DNA from: Pelagophyceae sp. CCMP2097
Lineage: Eukaryota; Sar; Pelagophyceae
Length of the DNA: 64,000 nt
Direction of reading: 5' to 3'
Assembly: GCA_026770575.1 (NCBI GenBank)
Contig: MU657165.1
Location: 846,182-910,181 of the forward strand
Under the pieces are notes generated by a model, which saw only the letters and a program-made list of their open reading frames with translations, was not told where the DNA came from and ran no database searches. Made by a program: the position numbers and the translations under genes. Below are positions 3,207 to 49,339 of this stretch, piece after piece; within the stretch, counting starts at the first letter, position 1; the number at the start of each line of letters is the position of its first letter.

Positions 3207-5061
3207 ACTTCTGGGGCGTACGCCGAGTGCGCGTGGACGATCAGAGGTTGCTGCGGGTCCGGCGGCCTCGGCGGCGTGCGCGCCTCGCCGGGCTTGCGCG
3301 GCGGCGTGCGCGCGTCGCCGGGCTTGCGCTGCGGCGTTGGCGGCCTTCTCGGCAGGAGGGACGGCGTCGTGCGCCTTTCATGGGTCACGTTTCGCGAGTG
3401 TTGACGGATCATAACGATGTTGGCGCCCACGCAGGCGGCGTTGACGAGGAACGCGATGAAAAGCTCAAGGCACACAATCGCAAATACCACCGCGCGCGAG
3501 ACCTGCAGCAGCGGTGCACGAGGCCGCGAAAGGGCGTCCCATTGTGCAACGCACCGGCGGGTCGACGACGTCGTCTAGAGGCGGGTCGTTGTGGTCCAGT
3601 ATCGCGTACGCCGCGGCCGTCAGCGTGCTCGTGTTCCGCGCGCCAAACGCTCCGGGGACGCCCTCGCCGTCGCGGTCGTAGGCCGCGTAAAAGCCGCAGC
3701 CCTCAACGCCGCGGCACGGCCCGTCGACGAGATCCAGCGTCGCGTTGCGCAGCCTACGCAGCCAGCGTCCGCGTCCGCGGCGACCAAAGGCGCACTGACC
3801 AGTCCGCGACGGTCTCGGCGCCGGCGTCTCGGAGCGCTCTTTCGACGAGTGCGTTTTGAAAGGGCCACGCCAAAGCGCCTTCGGGCCAGCGCGGCCCCTC
3901 GGTCCGGGCGGTATAGCGCGACCGCAGTCTCCGCGCGGCGTCGGGGCCGCGGTCGCACTCGACTTCTGGGAGCGGCTCGTAATCGCCGGCGCAGGCGAAG
4001 GTGGCGGGCGTCGTAGGAATAACGAGCTCGGCGAAGACTCGGGCTTGGTCGCCGCGCGACGCCCTTGGCGCCCAGACTGCGGTGGCGTCGCCGACGACGG
4101 CGACGTCGGCTCTTATCCAGAGCGCGGAATCGGCGGTGGCATCCGTAGACCAGAGCGAGCGGAAGGCGCCGCCGTCGGCGAGGCGGCCCACATCCAGCGC
4201 GCCGGCCCAGCCGAGGATCTGCGCGCGCGCGGCGTCATCGAGGCCCGACGTGCGGACGTGGCGATGCTCCAGCGCGTCGATGAGTCTTAGGAGAGCCTCG
4301 TCGGCGCGCGCGAGCACGCCGTTGAACTGCGCGTCCTTTGCCCCAAAGCCGCAAATGGCGAAGACGCGCGCGGCGTCGAAGCCGCACTCGGCCACGCAAT
4401 CCGCGAGCGCGAGCATCGGGTCGTCGTCGGCGGCGGCGGCGCCGAGGCCAGAACATTCATCAACGCCGTAGCCCGCGGCGGCGCACCAGGGCCGCCAGAG
4501 CTGCGCCGGCGCGAGGCTCTCCCAAGGGTGCCAGAGGCGGACGAGGCCGTCGTCCCGCGCGCTTCGCTGGTCGTGGAGGTACCTGTGCCATCGAAAGAGC
4601 TTTTGGGCGACCTCGGCGCCGAACGATGCGGCCTCGGCGCGGTTCGGCTCTTCTGCGTAAATCTGGAGAGCGACGATGGCCTGCAGAGGCAGCGCCGCGA
4701 GCGGCAGCGAACTTGCGGTAAGGAGGCCACTCTGGTTCCAAAACGCCAGCCCGGGCACCCCGTAAACGTCGCCGTCGGTGAGGCCAAAGTAGGCGGGGAT
4801 CATGCCGTTTGCCCACTGCGCCTCGAACACGGCGCGGAGCTCGCGCTTGGCGCGGTGCGGCGACTTTGGTGCCAGAGCCCAAGCCGCAAACGTCGACGAA
4901 AGGCTCGACGCCGAACCGGATAAGTGCGCCGCCGGCCGCGTCGCGCCCATCGAGGCGTCGTACGATGTTTCGAGCTGCTCGAACGCCGCGTCTCGCCGGC
5001 CGGCCAGCGCCGACGCTCGCAGAAGCACCGCAAGGCGCAACATTCGACCCCACGGCGCCAT
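3200..5061 (-). CDS. GH63-like (alpha/alpha)6 glycosidase homolog with C-terminal TM segment
   Basis: Exons 5061-3800, 3753-3555 and 3502-3200, introns of 46 and 52 nt; about 587 residues from ATG 5061. The body resembles GH63/mannosylglycerate-hydrolase toroids: WANGMIPAYFG, GLAFWNQSGLL, RLWHPWES, QFNGVLARADEALLRL, GPRWPEGALAWPFQNALV, FYAAYDRDGEG. After the catalytic-like region come a hydrophobic helix (VVFAIVCLELFIAFLVNAA) and a Pro/Arg-rich tail (KPGDARTPP, KPGEARTPP), suggesting membrane anchoring. Two positions usually acidic in the family look replaced: HPWES is followed by LAPAQLW rather than G-x-D-N, and FYAAYD has Ala where E is expected. It may therefore be inactive (inference). 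The start could lie further upstream if a 5' exon was missed, since the N-terminal WD-type motif is not seen. Confidence 0.65.
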
Positions 5062-5857
5062 CTCGCCGCGTCAGCGGCGCTCGTCCTCGAATTTTACGCC
5101 GCGACGTGCCGCGAGCAGCTGAGCAATGGCCGGCCCGAAGCACCCTCCGGAGTGGTCCCTCTGGAGCGGCGCGACGCCGTTGACAGCTCGAACCTTCGCC
5201 GATTCCTACGGGTTTTACAAAGGGTTTTACAAATCTCTGAAAATGAATCCGAAGATATTGTCGCTGCGATTCGACCGACGATGGGCAGCCCGGCGCCATC
5301 CTCGGACCCTCCTTCGGCGAGATTGGGTCTGGACGCGTCGTGCACGCTCCAACGTCCGACGGAATTTCATGTTGAGATTTTCTGATATTTCAACGGTCTG
5401 CCTTCTGACGTAGGGCGACGCACGTGACGTTAGGCACGCGCGAGTGGCTCGGGGCGCTCCTGTCGGCACCCCGGATTCATCCACGTCGTTCTATCCACGT
5501 CGTAGTGCCGGGGCGTCGCCTCGTCGCCCGTCGTTTCCTGTTCCATATTATCGAGTCTCCCAATGAGTCTCCCCCGTTTTTTCACACTGGTTCTGGACGG
5601 ACGTGACAAAAGCAAGCGGTTCCCATTGCAATGCCGCTGCCGCCGCCGTCGTCGCCGCCGCCGCCGTCGCAATCGCGCGCGCCGCCGTCTGGCGCGCCGC
5701 CGCCGGGCGCCTCGCCGAGCGGCAATGCGGCGGCCATGTGGCGCATGAGGTGCGCTATACGGCGCTACGCCCGGCACGCGGCGCCGGCGCAGACCCGCGC
5801 CGCTTTGAGGCGACGCGGCGCAGGTACGCGTCCGGCCCGTCGCCGGAGAAGCCGCCC
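5062..5857. other. Intergenic region between head-to-head genes
   Basis: 796 bp between the starts of the GH63-like gene and the Tubby gene. It holds a doubled ggttttaca motif near 5210-5230 and a Pro/Ala-rich, strongly GCC-repetitive stretch from about 5630. That stretch is open in several frames but shows no recognisable protein. It may contain a 5' UTR exon of the Tubby gene. No other gene is supported. Confidence 0.5.
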
Positions 5858-42964: not shown

Positions 42965-45559
42965 TTAGAAGTCCGATGGGCTCTCGGCCACCGACGCGCC
43001 TCGCATCGTCTTACTGCGCACGTACTCGTCGTGGTCGGCGCTCGAGAGCGCGTCCCATTCAAAGTAAGGCACGCGGACCACCGTCCAGCCCAGTCTGCGG
43101 AGCAGCTGCTCCTTGGACTTGGACTTGCTGTCGAGCACGCGAGTCAGAACGCCATCTGACGAGCCCACGCGATAATGCGTCGGGTCGTCGAACTCGACGG
43201 CGACCTTTGAAGCCAGCTGCGCCATGGCGAGGCTGATCCCTTCGGCCGTGGCGTGCTCGAAGTCGTGCGCCCAGCCGATGCGGAAGAGCGCCGCCGACAC
43301 TTCACGCTGCGATCGAGATGGGCTCGGCTCTTGACGAAGATAAGCTGCATTCAGTTTGGCCTCGTGCCGACTCAGGAGCATCGTCAGCGGATGCTGCGGC
43401 GCCTCTAGTCGGAGAAGCATGGAGGCTTGGTGCAACTGAGAAAGCCCGTCGTCGCTGAGCTCGCCCATCTTCGCTTCGATACTCAAAGCCATCGCCTCGA
43501 GCAGCGCCGGCGCCATGACTCCAGCCGCCGCATAAGCCCACGCCGTGTTGGCGAGCGCGGGCGCGTCGAACGTCGCGATCTTTGTGAGTGCTTCTGCGGC
43601 GACTGCGCCGAAGAGCGCCGGCGCCTCGACTCCTGCGTTGGCATAGGCCCAGACGATGCTCGCGAGCGCTTGCGAATCCAACGTCGCGATCTTCTTAAAT
43701 AATTTCGCAGCGACCGCCTCGAAAAGCGCCGGCGCCTCAATCCCCGCCGTCGAATAAGCCCACACGGTGTTTGCGAGCTCTTGCGGTTTGAACGTCGCCA
43801 TCTTCTTGGACGATTCTGCGGCGACCGCCTCGAAGAGTGTCGGCGCCGCGACGCCCGCCGTCGCATAAGCGCGCACAAGCTTCGAGAGCTCTTGCGACTC
43901 AAACGTCTCAATCTTCGTTAATGACTCCTTGGCGACCGCGTCGAACAGCGCCGGCGCGGCGACGCCCGCCGCCGAAAAGGCCCAGACGGTGTTCACGAGC
44001 GACTGCGGCTCGAACGTCGCCATCTTCTTCGACGCTTCCGCGGCGACGGCCCTGAACAGCGCCGGCGCCGAAACGCCCGCCGATGCAAAGGCCCAGACGG
44101 TGTTTGCGAGGTCGAGCGAGTCGAAGGTGGCCATCTTCTTCGTTGAACCGCCGTCGAGAGTCGCTGCGACGGCCTCAAATAAATCCGGCGCCGCGACGCC
44201 CGCCGTCGCGTAGGCCCAGACGGTGTTCGCCAAAGCCTGCGGTCGGAACATGGCCACTTTCTCCGCTGCTTGCGCTTGGGCAGCTTCAAATAATACCGGC
44301 GCCTCGACGCCCGCGTTGGAAAACGCCCACACGACGTTTGCGACATCTTGCGAGTTGAACTTTGCAATCTTGATCAACGCTTCCGCCGCGACGGCCTCAA
44401 ATAAAGCCGGCGCTTGAAAGCCCGCGGTGGAAAAAGCCCAGGCCACGTTGGCGAGCTCGGGCGTGGTCAACGTCCCGACCTTCTCCGGGACTTGCAGTGC
44501 AAAGGCCTCGAATAACAACGGCGCCGGCACGCCCGCCGATGCAAAGGCCCACGCCGTCTTGGCGAGGTCTTCCGGGCTGAACGTATAGGCCTTGGAACTG
44601 GCGCATTTTGCCACGGCGTCGAAGAACTCCGGCGCCGGCGCGCCCGCCGCCGCGTAGGCCCAGACGGCGCTCGCGAGGGCCGCGGAGCTAAAGTGCGCCA
44701 CCTTGATGCTGCCCTGCTCGGCGAGGCCTTGGAAGAGGTCGGGCGCCGAAACTTTGGACGTCGCAAACGACCAAACTAAGTTCGCTATCTCCTGCGGCTT
44801 CAGAGTCTCGACCTGCTTCGAGGCGGCGTTTGCGGCGGCCTCGAAGAACGCCGGCGCCGTCCCGGCGGCGACTTTGGCGATGCCCCAGCACGCTGCCGCA
44901 ATCTCGCGCGACTCCCACGCCGCTTCGTCGCCGATGATGCTCGACGTCGCTTTTTGGACGAGGCGGTGGTGCAGCGCCGCGCAGACGGGGCTGAACGTCT
45001 CGCTCATATCGCCGAGGCGGTGCAGCGCATTGGCGAGGTTGACGGCCGAAAACCTGTGCCCCTTCGCCTCGAAGAGCGTCAGCACCGACGCCGCCGACTC
45101 GCTCAGCGCGAGCTGCTTGTTCAGCGCGGCGGCCTCCGCGTGCACCACCCTGGGCCGAAGCTTGGGCACATGCGCTTTCCTGGGCCCTGGTTGTTTCTTC
45201 GGCGGCGCGACGCGAACTTCAATCTCAAGGCCGCCGACCTTTGCGCCCTCGAGAGCGAGGAGGACGGCGTCCGTGTCCGTCGTCAGGATGGTGAGGTTCG
45301 CACAGCCGTTGGACTTGCCGCTCCGCGGGTCTTTGGTGATGAAAATCGACCGGACGTCGCAGGAAGACGCGAAGACGCGCCGCACCTGCTCCACCGTTGC
45401 GCTGTGCGGGAGGTTGCGCACGCGGAGCACCACGTCGCCGATGACACCCGGGGCCGACAGGTAGTGCCCGTGCAAGCCGCGCCGCGCAATCGACGCGGGG
45501 GCCCGGCCCAATCGACCGAGCGAGAGGCCCATCGGCGATGCTTTTCCGAACGCCTGCAT
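42965..45559 (-). CDS. Organelle RNA-binding protein: RRM, ~37-residue helical repeats and RAP domain
   Basis: Single exon, 865 residues from ATG 45559 (MQAFGKASPMGLSLGRLGRA). The Arg-rich start (ARRGLHGHYLSA) suggests an organelle transit peptide, probably mitochondrial. Residues 40-130 are an RRM (VVLRVRNLPHSATVEQVRRV, RSIFITKDPRSGKSNGCANL). Residues 240-700 hold about 13 repeats of 36-38 residues with the consensus LANTVWAFATAGVxAPALFE, as in OPR/FASTK-like algal proteins. The C-terminal RAP domain includes VAVEFDDPTHY, TRVLDSKSKSKEQLLRRLGW and VVRVPYFEWD. Such proteins stabilise or process organelle RNAs. Upstream in-frame sequence lacks an ATG, so the start is well supported. An intronless gene here is unusual for the window. 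Confidence 0.88.
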   Translation of the reverse strand: MQAFGKASPMGLSLGRLGRAPASIARRGLHGHYLSAPGVIGDVVLRVRNLPHSATVEQVRRVFASSCDVRSIFITKDPRSGKSNGCANLTILTTDTDAVLLALEGAKVGGLEIEVRVAPPKKQPGPRKAHVPKLRPRVVHAEAAALNKQLALSESAASVLTLFEAKGHRFSAVNLANALHRLGDMSETFSPVCAALHHRLVQKATSSIIGDEAAWESREIAAACWGIAKVAAGTAPAFFEAAANAASKQVETLKPQEIANLVWSFATSKVSAPDLFQGLAEQGSIKVAHFSSAALASAVWAYAAAGAPAPEFFDAVAKCASSKAYTFSPEDLAKTAWAFASAGVPAPLLFEAFALQVPEKVGTLTTPELANVAWAFSTAGFQAPALFEAVAAEALIKIAKFNSQDVANVVWAFSNAGVEAPVLFEAAQAQAAEKVAMFRPQALANTVWAYATAGVAAPDLFEAVAATLDGGSTKKMATFDSLDLANTVWAFASAGVSAPALFRAVAAEASKKMATFEPQSLVNTVWAFSAAGVAAPALFDAVAKESLTKIETFESQELSKLVRAYATAGVAAPTLFEAVAAESSKKMATFKPQELANTVWAYSTAGIEAPALFEAVAAKLFKKIATLDSQALASIVWAYANAGVEAPALFGAVAAEALTKIATFDAPALANTAWAYAAAGVMAPALLEAMALSIEAKMGELSDDGLSQLHQASMLLRLEAPQHPLTMLLSRHEAKLNAAYLRQEPSPSRSQREVSAALFRIGWAHDFEHATAEGISLAMAQLASKVAVEFDDPTHYRVGSSDGVLTRVLDSKSKSKEQLLRRLGWTVVRVPYFEWDALSSADHDEYVRSKTMRGASVAESPSDF

Positions 45560-45846
45560 CGTCAGCGGCGCCGAGGCGAGGGACGCGCCGCACGACGTAC
45601 GGGGAGCCGAGGGGCCGAGGCGACGCACCGCGCCGCGCGACGGCCGGGCGAGGTTTCTGTTAATATCGCTAAACAACTTTAACAACTTTTTCGGCGACGT
45701 TTCTTCGAAAACTTGAAAGAGACTCGGAGTCGGAGAGGAGGCCGCTGAGGGGTGTTCGATCGTCCCCGGGGCCGGGCCGCGCTTCCGAACCTCGCGCCTC
45801 GCCGCTCGCCGGGCCCTTTCGCCGCGAGGCCTCTGTGCATTTGAGC
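45560..45846. promoter_or_regulatory. Divergent promoter interval, RAP-domain and coiled-coil genes
   Basis: 287 bp between the two start codons, with an AT-rich block (aacaactttaacaacttttt) near 45670-45692 in otherwise GC-rich DNA. Confidence 0.4.
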
Positions 45847-46519
45847 ATGGCGACTTTCCGGACGCCGCTCGTCGCGACTTCGGAAGCGCCGCAGCACCCT
45901 GACGGTGCGTCCGCCCGGCCGGCCGTTTCGCGCGCTATTCACCGGTGCTCGCAGAGGGCCTCTCGACGCTCGAGCTCGACGTGCACATCGTCGACTACGG
46001 GAACCAGGTCTGAGCCCCGCCCTGTTTGAAAGCGCCGCGGCCCTCGCGCGAATCTCGACGCGGCCGTCGACAGATCAAGCACCTCGTGCGGAGCAACGCC
46101 GAGCTCGAGGAGTTTATGCGCGAAAACGGCCACGACAAGGACCTGCGCGACGCCGTCGGTGCGCCCCGCCGGTCCGAATGCTTCCGCGGAACGAGCCGAG
46201 GTCAGGCGAGAACATCGTCGTCATCGCGCGGAAGCGCGCCGAGCTCGGGTCGCTGCAGGCGCTGCGCGCGCGCCGCGGCGACGTCCCGGAGGACGCCGCC
46301 GCGCCGGACGCCGCCTACGCGCCGACGGACGCCAACGCGCCAAGAATCGCCGCCGGCCCAGAGCTGCCGCCGCACATGCGCCCGAAGAAGCGGCCCGCGG
46401 GCCCCGAGCTCCCGCCGCACATGACCGGCCGCGAATCCCGCGCGCCAACGTCGCCGCAGCTGGGCGCGGCCGCGGCCGCCACGGGCGCCGTCGGCACCAA
46501 CGGCGCAGTCTACCTGTAG
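45847..46519 (+). CDS. Small conserved coiled-coil protein of unknown function
   Basis: Exons 45847-45904, 45955-46007, 46074-46158 and 46206-46519; introns 47-66 nt; 169 residues. The first half is helical (STLELDVHIVDYGNQIKHLV, RSNAELEEFMRENGHDKDLR, DAVGENIVVIARKRAELGSL). The second half is disordered and contains a duplicated GPELPPHM motif. Four phases agree, and the helical part looks conserved, but I do not recognise the family. It is convergent with the selenoprotein candidate, whose SECIS-like element lies in the 250-bp gap between them. Confidence 0.65.
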
Positions 46520-46650: not shown

Positions 46651-46725
46651 GTCTCTCGGTCGTGGTGTCAGAGCCGTGCGGGGGTTCTAGTCCCGCGCGG
46701 CTCTTCATTCTGCGAGCGATGAGAC
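46651..46725 (-). promoter_or_regulatory. SECIS-like hairpin in the 3' UTR of the selenoprotein candidate
   Basis: Read on the minus strand, 46725-46651 folds as a lower helix (gtctc with gagac, plus two short pairings), then the core ATGA (46708-46705) opposite TGA (46670-46668). Next comes a 12-bp upper helix (gagccgcgcggg with cccgcacggctc, one C-A mismatch) and a 9-nt loop actagaacc. ATGA/GA quartet, helix length and loop agree with eukaryotic SECIS elements. The loop adenosines (GAA) are nearer its 3' side than is usual. It begins 44 nt after the stop codon of the gene with the in-frame TGA. Confidence 0.65.
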
Positions 46726-46768
46726 TTTGTCCCTTTTGCGCTTTCCGGCGGCGCGTTGGCCGAAGCGG

Positions 46769-47225
46769 CTACTTCTTTTCATCCTTTTTCTCGTCATCGT
46801 CGACGACGCCCGCTGGGAGTTCACCGTTGGTGTTGAAGAACAGATTGCCCTCCGTGTCGCGGCCGAAGGCGAGCTTCGACAGCATGCCGAAGCCGCGGAT
46901 GGCCTTGGGCTCGCCCGAGATGAGCGTGGGCAGCGCGGAAACCGTGCGCCCCGCCGTGATGATGGATCATCCGATGACCTACGCTCGACGGCTCGCCGGC
47001 CGCCCGGCAAAGGCGCAAAAGGCCGCCGCGGGACGCACCATGGTCGGCTGGGTCCGATGGAAGTGGCGCGTCTGCGGGCGGAAGGCGCCTACGTCGTCAC
47101 GGGTTACAAAACGGGTCACGCGTTCCAAAACCCAGAGCGGCGGCTGGTAGAGTCGACGCCGGGAACTCACAAGGGGCGCGCTGGACGAGAGCGACCGCGG
47201 AAGTGAGGAGGAACAAGAAGCGCAT
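46769..47225 (-). CDS. Candidate selenoprotein, small, signal-peptide-bearing, Sec at residue 39
   Basis: Exons 47225-47171, 47088-47039 and 46978-46769; introns 82 and 60 nt (GTGAGT...GTAG, GTGCGT...GTAG); 104 residues if the TGA at 46969-46967 is read as selenocysteine. It begins MRFLFLLTSAVALVQRAPC, a signal peptide. The sequence around the TGA is TMVIG-U-SIITAGRTVS, followed by SALPTLISGEPKAIRGFGML and an acidic-basic end VVDDDEKKDEKK before TAG. The coding style after the TGA (no stop for 66 codons, low-complexity-free) argues that it is translated. The acceptor must lie before the TGA, since no AG follows it until well into the exon. I do not recognise the family. The alternative is that this is a gene broken by TGA. 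Confidence 0.55.
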
Positions 47226-47488: not shown

Positions 47489-49339
47489 ATGGCGGGCCGC
47501 GCAGGGTACGGCGAGTCGCAGCGCGGGCTGAAGAAGGAGAAGGATGTGCGCATGTCGAACATCATGGCCGCCAAGGGCATTGCCGACGTTTGAAACCGCG
47601 TCCGCCCGCCGCAACGCCGCATCGCCGCGGTGGAGGCGTCCGACCCGGGTGGCAGATGCCGGTCCTCGCGGGGCTCTGGCAGCGTCTGGCAAACCTTTGC
47701 CTTTGCGCAGGCGATTCGCACGTCGCTGGGCCCGCGCGGTATGGACAAGATGATCCAGTCCGGCGACGGCGAGGTCATCATCACCAACGACGGCGCCACC
47801 ATCCTCTCCCAGATGGAAGTCCAGTGCGTAAAGGCGCTGGAGTTGCGGGGCCGCCCGAAAGGGGAAAGCGGTCGGGCGGTTTGCCTGCCGGCCGCGCGCC
47901 GTTGGACCTTGGCGTCGCGCCGGCGCCGCCGGTGAACGCTGCTCCCTAGGCACCCGACGGCGAAGATGCTCGTGGAGCTGTCCAAGTCTCAGGACATTGA
48001 GGCGGGCGACGGCACGACATCGGTGTGCGTCATCGCGGGGTCGCTGCTCGACGCGTGCCACCAGCTGCTGACAAAGGGCCTGCACCCGACGACCATCGCT
48101 GAGGCGTTCATGCTCGCCGCCGACGAGGCGGAGCGCATCCTCAAGGACACGATTGCGCGGCCCGTGGCGCTGGAGGACCGGCCGACGCTGATCAACGCCG
48201 TCGTGACGTGCCTGTCGTCGAAGGTCGTGTCGCAAAACTCGGACACGCTGGCGCCCATCGCCGTCGACGCCGTCCTGGCCGTGATGGGCCCGGCGCCGTA
48301 CACGGGTGTCACGACGGTGGACCTGACGAACATCAAGATTGTGAAGCAGCTCGGCGGCACCGTCGACGACACGGAGCTCGTCGACGGCATCGTCTTCCCG
48401 CAGGGCGTGCGCAAGGCCGCGGGCGGGCCGACGCGCGTGGAAAAGGCGAAGATTGGCCTGATCCAATTCTGCCTGAGCGCACCGAAGACAGACATGGAGA
48501 ACAATGTTGTCGTTTCGGATTACGCGGCCATGGACCGCCTCCTGCGCGAGGAGCGCAAGCACGTCCTCGGCCTCTGCAAGAAGATCAAAAAGGCGGGGTG
48601 CAACGTTTTGCTCATCCAGAAATCGATCCTTCGCGACGCGTACAACGACCTCTCTTTGCATTTCCTGGCCAAGATGGGCATCATGTGCATCACGGACATC
48701 GAGCGCGGCGAGATCGAATTCATCTCCAACACGCTGGGCTTGTTGCCCGTGGCCCACGTCGACAACATGGCCCCGGAGAAGTTGGGCACCGCCGAGCTCG
48801 TGCACGAGGTGAGCATGCCCGGGTCGAACCAAAAGGTCGTCAAGTGCGTCGGCGTGCCGCGGTCCGGCCTCTCGATGACCATCTTGGTGCGCGGGTCGAA
48901 CAAGCTGGTCCTGGAGGAGGCGGACCGCAGCATCCACGACGCGCTCTGCGTCGTGCGGTCGCTCGTGAAGAAACGCTTCGTCATCGCCGGTGGAGGCGCA
49001 CCGGAGATCGAGGCCTGCTTGAAGCTCGCCGACTTCGCCAAGACGGTGACGGGCATGAAGGGCTACTGCGTGGCCGCGTTTGCGGAGGCATTGGAGGTGG
49101 TCCCATACACGTTGGCCGAAAACGCCGGCTTGAACCCCATCGACATCGTCACCGAGCTGCGCAAGCGGCACCGCGGCGGCGAGGTCGACGCCGGCATCAA
49201 CGTCCAGCACAGCGTCATCTCGAACATGTACGAGGAGAATGTGATCCAGCCGCTCCTCGTCAACACATCCGCGCTGCACCTCGCCACCGAGTGCATCTGC
49301 ATGATCCTCAAGATCGACGACCTCGTCGCGGTACGGTAA
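47489..49339 (+). CDS. CCT4: T-complex protein 1 subunit delta (CCT4)
   Basis: Exons 47489-47587, 47711-47823 and 47950-49339; 533 residues, the usual size. Group II chaperonin motifs are all present: [57 protein letters not shown], and [16 protein letters not shown]. The delta subunit is indicated by [13 protein letters not shown] and by [18 protein letters not shown]. The chaperonin folds actin and tubulin in the cytosol. The first exon donor is gtttgaaa, weak, while both acceptors are strong. The start context is cagccATGG. Introns of 123 and 126 nt are longer than most here. It lies head to head with the selenoprotein candidate, 263 bp away. Confidence 0.95.

Follow-up and report, generated by a model that had tools for sequence, protein, structure and literature searches.

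The candidate gene described here lies on the minus strand at 47225-46769 of the window, the whole 64,000-nucleotide stretch of Pelagophyceae sp. CCMP2097 DNA that was analysed, and starts with an ATG at 47225. Exon 1 (47171..47225) encodes the signal peptide MRFLFLLTSAVALVQRAP and passes one leftover base across intron 1 (47089..47170; 82 nt, GTGAGT...CGTAG) to exon 2 (47039..47088), which reads (C)AFRPQTRHFHRTQPTM and is transit-peptide-like, without acidic residues. Beyond intron 2 (46979..47038; 60 nt, GTGCGT...CGTAG), exon 3 (46769..46978) reads VIG-U-SIITAGRTVSALPTLISGEPKAIRGFGMLSKLAFGRDTEGNLFFNTNGELPAGVVDDDEKKDEKK and closes with a TAG at 46771-46769. The original prediction of a three-exon minus-strand gene with consistent phases was borne out: the exons join in phase, the coding sequence is divisible by 3 and both introns run GT...TAG. 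The in-frame TGA that it placed at codon 39, followed by 65 sense codons and the TAG, can be read directly from the sequence at 46969-46967, in the last exon, and is the candidate selenocysteine (Sec) codon. The whole protein has a single Cys, residue 19 in the leader, which leaves the mature part without a Cys partner for Sec.

On the 5' side, the neighbour is a divergent plus-strand gene for TCP1-delta, whose reading frame (47966-49336) matches the Pelagophyceae sp. CCMP2097 t-complex protein 1 delta subunit at 100% identity over its full length. Past the 3' end, a plus-strand reading frame converges on the candidate gene and stops at 46519, and the 249-nt gap between the two convergent stop codons contains a SECIS-like hairpin. 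A 1.1-kb stretch that includes this hairpin is single-copy in the CCMP2097 assembly (66.2 Mb, 638 contigs), and among the fetched loci there was no further match below E 0.2; the hairpin is therefore not a dispersed repeat. Elsewhere in the window, a 906-aa minus-strand frame (42965-45685) has many VWA(F/Y)-type repeats and, judged by eye, is perhaps an organelle RNA-binding repeat protein.

Leader and coding signal on either side of the TGA

Acidic residues are absent from the leader (MRFLFLLTSAVALVQRAPCA|FRPQTRHFHRTQPTM), which carries 7 R/K/H in 35 residues. In heterokont algae, a signal peptide with Phe at position +1 is the plastid-import pattern, and under this rule cleavage of the candidate leader would presumably take place at CA|F. 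Exons 1 and 2 thus appear to specify a signal peptide followed by a plastid-type leader, and the product is predicted to be imported into the plastid. Were translation to end at the TGA, only a 38-residue leader without cargo would be made.

The stretch downstream of the TGA is strongly coding. A codon-usage score was trained on three reading frames nearby; by this score the 65 codons of frame 0 after the TGA average 0.59 bits each, a value attained by none of 2000 dinucleotide shuffles (maximum 0.21) and by 2% of the window's 5632 open stretches of 65 codons, training genes counted in. The remaining five readings of exon 3 score from -1.10 to 0.19; two of these, the alternative forward frames, are ruled out as readings of the exon by their scores of -0.72 and -0.87. 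The first 21 codons past the TGA score 0.42 bits/codon, with a GC3 of 0.95, and exons 1 and 2 are neutral (0.06).

Selenocysteine use by the CCMP2097 genome

The CCMP2097 genome uses selenocysteine, as can be seen from the presence of SepSecS and from TGA codons inside its GPx, SelT-like, Sep15/SelM-like, MsrA and peroxiredoxin genes. An internal TGA was found in 4 of 6 matches to glutathione peroxidase (two of them in a tandem pair), in both matches to Sep15/SelM, and in 2 of 13 to MsrA, where that of L034 (loci are given by their L numbers) lies at the active-site G-U-FW. Among three Rdx matches, one, SelT-like, has an internal TGA, and a second, the SelW-like L007, has its TGA just before the matched stretch; for AhpC-TSA the count is one in seven, L051, which falls slightly under the family cut-off. 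Rfam SECIS models gave no match across the window and two weak matches below the cut-off in the genome, L002 and L003. The first lies behind a peroxiredoxin with the motif TGG-U-T, which PMC7539508 assigns to AhpC_a; at L003, a selenoprotein frame was sought by eye on the strand read and none was seen. The Rfam tRNA-Sec model, run on the genome with 53 of 5768 candidates scored, detected no tRNA-Sec, and a tRNA-Sec sequence pattern returned 5 sites with 2 mismatches against 4 in reversed controls. One of these sites, L032, was rejected as a tRNA-Sec, as neither ARAGORN nor Rfam finds a tRNA there, and a selD model search of the genome gave no match. The missing tRNA-Sec and SelD are taken as a limit of the searches.

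The tandem GPx copies of L028 each carry a presumed SECIS element of 45.3 bits (3922-3971 and 5620-5669, plus strand), and their 3' regions, when translated, match for a certain distance. On the minus strand of L034, behind the MsrA stop, the coding end is seemingly repeated several times, with (R)PTLVAKNRR- and QEPTL-like pieces in all three frames.

The hairpin and the presumed SECIS elements of the genome

The hairpin (46651..46725, minus strand) lies 3' of the stop codon and begins at the 44th nucleotide past the TAG. It is built from a lower helix of 11 pairs with small interruptions, an ATGA (46708-46705) opposite a TGA (46670-46668), an upper helix, and a 9-nt apical loop (ACUAGAACC, 46691-46683). 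These features stand as originally predicted, as does the position; the 12-bp upper helix of that prediction has to be amended, for with the quartet kept unpaired its 12 positions hold 11 Watson-Crick pairs and one C.A mismatch. The minimum free energy (MFE) fold (46725-46651, -37.2 kcal/mol) has an extra A-U pair that involves the U of UGA. With a stability z of -5.76, and with none of 200 shuffles folding equally well, the hairpin has the lowest z among ten hairpins folded, the other nine being presumed SECIS elements (-4.23 to -0.40). In terms of a structural SECIS test, NTGA faces NGA between two helices, the fold is stable and no more than two consecutive stem bases are unpaired. The energy thresholds given for SECIS elements in PMC2375036 are -12.6 for the whole and -3.7 for the upper stem-loop, and the hairpin lies well below both (-37.2 and -21.7, energies from another program). 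The ATGA is found 60 nt past the stop codon; in four selenoprotein loci measured, this distance is 44, 60, 77 and 120 nt.

How often such hairpins arise was estimated with a descriptor scan of 163,010 bases on both strands, made up of the window and ten 9.9-kb regions around Rfam or selenoprotein-family matches. A looser cut gave 26 matches, of which 19 are neither presumed SECIS elements nor the candidate, and the candidate ranked 14th by summed energy. With per-axis cut-offs, which were fixed with the candidate already known, five matches equal it on each axis: the candidate itself, the presumed elements of L002, L009 and L007, and one hairpin antisense to a SelW-like coding end. Shuffled sequence gave 13 such matches in 20 rounds, or 0.65 per round (163 kb, both strands); a cut on summed energy instead gave 8 real matches against 22 in 20 shuffle rounds. 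From the per-axis rate of 0.65 per 326,020 strand-bases, the chance of an equally good hairpin on the right strand of the 249-nt gap is about 5e-4. L017 and L010 have presumed elements that the descriptor overlooked.

The candidate differs from the presumed SECIS elements of its own genome in two marks. All eight of the elements aligned (L002, L005, L007, L009, L010, L017, L018 and L051) read [AG]TGACG at the quartet; the candidate reads ATGAAG and has no TGACG start. Six of the eight (L002, L005, L007, L009, L017 and L051) were chosen without regard to TGACG, L010 is a second-ranked hairpin, and L018 was partly chosen for TGACG. This mark is weaker than it appears, because 8 of the 19 other descriptor matches also carry CG at that quartet position. 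The second mark is the rule, given in PMC2375036, that an unpaired AA or CC lies 10-13 nt past the quartet. In the candidate the AA sits 18 nt past it, and a site obeying the rule was sought on the minus strand from 47000 to about 45950 without success. When AA/CC was forced to be unpaired, 7 of 10 selenoprotein loci fitted at the chosen hairpin; L010 and L034 did not, and the site of L002 itself lies outside the scan. As letters, AA or CC is found at 10-13 nt in 9 of 10 presumed elements, and it is unpaired in the MFE fold of 2 of 10 presumed elements and of none of the 19 other descriptor matches. Single exceptions to a species-wide SECIS mark are known: PMC2375036 describes a conserved G in all O. 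tauri elements but one.

A covariance model, R1, was built on six presumed elements from MAFFT alignment A8. Alignments A1-A5, A7, A9 and A10 each contain one or more sequences with a misplaced quartet strand; of A6, which misplaces the 3' strand of L009, only the 5' side was used. R1 aligns the candidate in the correct register at 7.0 bits, outside the 60 R1 matches. Elements left out of the model scored 22.9 (L034), 15.4 (L008), 13.5 (L002) and 10.0 (L009), where neither L034, itself found with R1, nor L008, a weak call (z -0.40), is a clean control; elsewhere in the window, matches reach 21.9 bits. R1 is too weak for the question, and the 7.0 bits of the candidate lie within noise, so that it is neither recovered nor excluded.

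Two further observations concern the presumed elements themselves. The [AG]TGACG at the quartet, noted also for L034 and L008 and mostly with CGA on the other strand, is a possible lineage signature for finding the whole selenoproteome of CCMP2097. In addition, the presumed elements of L009 (minus strand, 1056-1101, behind a GPx) and L051 (minus strand, 1241-1291, behind an unrelated peroxiredoxin) have the apical sequence CCGACCTCTTTGG in common.

Relatives, rival explanations and a proposed selenoprotein

A search with the full-length protein gave no relative at E <= 1 (2 candidates shared words), exon 3 alone found no protein sharing three words, and a search of exon 3 against viral and prokaryotic contigs gave no relative. 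The missing relatives are weak evidence, because the protein database was limited to entries of 0.55-1.75 times the query length with common words and because ORF callers cut Sec proteins. In Pfam the sole match is DUF1942 at E 0.012, its 16.1 bits falling short of the 22.4 cut-off. The only PDB match, to a phage PAAR protein, was discarded, as its score is owed to a typed C: E is 0.024 with C at the TGA and 0.57 with X. The predicted structure of exon 3 alone is uninformative (pLDDT 56, pTM 0.24). The GPx, SelT, SelW, SelM, MsrA and Prx genes of CCMP2097 resemble the candidate in having an in-frame TGA and an NTGA/NGA hairpin past the stop codon; the candidate departs from them in the two SECIS marks, ATGAAG for TGACG and AA at 18 nt for AA/CC at 10-13, and in being without a protein relative. 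Outside this genome, PMC7539508 reports 42 selenoprotein families in algae, three of them new, documents families confined to a single lineage, and counts 82 selenoprotein genes in 33 families for the pelagophyte Aureococcus. One family described there, SymSEP, is limited to an algal lineage as the candidate may be; it has a Trx-like domain and Cys homologues, neither of which was found for the candidate, a comparison made by description. CCMP2097 is not named in the main text of that paper, and in the open-licence literature we found no paper that pairs CCMP2097 with a selenoprotein.

Three other explanations of the TGA have to be weighed. It could be a genuine defect of a gene that broke recently, or a sense codon misread in the assembly, with a chance hairpin alongside. 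No homologue confirms Sec, the hairpin is without the two marks of the genome's presumed elements, and ATGA/TGA-type hairpins do occur elsewhere, as the 26 matches in 163 kb illustrate. Yet a broken or miscalled gene would have to account for a frame with no further stop or frameshift and with intact codon usage over 65 codons, as well as for a hairpin whose chance of lying at the right place and strand is so small; we regard this explanation as unlikely. Alternatively, the gene model could be at fault. Two in-frame alternative acceptors at 46903..46909 (minus strand), GAG|CCC with the exon from 46909 and AAG|GCC with the exon from 46903, would end intron 2 at 46910 or 46904 instead of 46979, make the TGA intronic and leave an ordinary TGA-free protein of 79-81 residues. 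Against this stand the non-consensus GAG and AAG, as the protein-confirmed TCP1-delta introns end in CAG and TAG and both modelled introns in TAG (n=4). This splicing would also discard 21 codons that have a coding-like appearance, and no annotated protein of 79-81 aa was found in a database that does contain the TCP1-delta protein of the same species; we consider an error of the gene model improbable. It is very unlikely that the hairpin has another 3'-end job (termination, processing) and that the TGA is passed without Sec or avoided by a start at a later Met: the hairpin does lie between convergent frames (stops 46519, plus strand, and 46769, minus strand), and the plus strand opposite it (46670-46704) weakly matches the mascRNA/menRNA model (17.2 bits against a cut-off of 42.5), but an ATGA/TGA pair is unnecessary for such a job and the 21 codons between the TGA and the first Met are coding-like.

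The simplest account is a selenoprotein, because the frame is intact across the TGA, the leader would otherwise be without cargo, the genome uses Sec and an ATGA/TGA hairpin is well placed behind the stop codon. We favour, with somewhat better than even confidence, a nuclear gene whose product is a small selenoprotein targeted to the plastid and belonging to an undescribed family; confidence is held at this level because relatives and the two SECIS marks are missing. The original prediction that the TGA encodes Sec survives in this qualified form: it is the best single explanation, both gene and hairpin are real and the DNA comes from a Sec-using pelagophyte, but no homologue could be aligned, the AA/CC spacing fails and TGACG is absent.

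In the proposed selenoprotein, exon 1 would supply the signal peptide, exon 2 the transit peptide, and exon 3 the mature chain, some 69 residues long, with a single Sec close to its N terminus (VIGU) and ending in an acidic/lysine tail. The hairpin, a putative working SECIS that lies about 60 nt past the TAG, would act in the cytosol by recruiting SBP2 as well as eEFSec with Sec-tRNA, so that the UGA is read as Sec; the TAG would terminate the protein, and plastid import would follow. Since the mature part has no Cys, our best guess at a function, by analogy with GPx or MsrA, is a one-selenol redox or peroxidatic role. A broader suggestion, to which we give a little less than an even chance, is a new family, perhaps confined to pelagophytes, of tiny selenoproteins that are imported into the plastid and have one Sec, no mature Cys and a SECIS that departs from the pattern of its own genome.

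The kind of gene is a known one; the family would be new. If the selenoprotein is real, a SECIS without TGACG or AA/CC at 10-13 nt would widen what the SECIS-binding machinery of this lineage accepts, and a plastid-targeted case with an unusual SECIS would be at hand to test. Since gene finders end at a TGA, homology-based selenoprotein searches can easily overlook small families that have only Sec and no relatives with Cys. A family that is visible only through its coding signal and its hairpin would then suggest that pelagophyte selenoproteomes, already among the largest, are undercounted.
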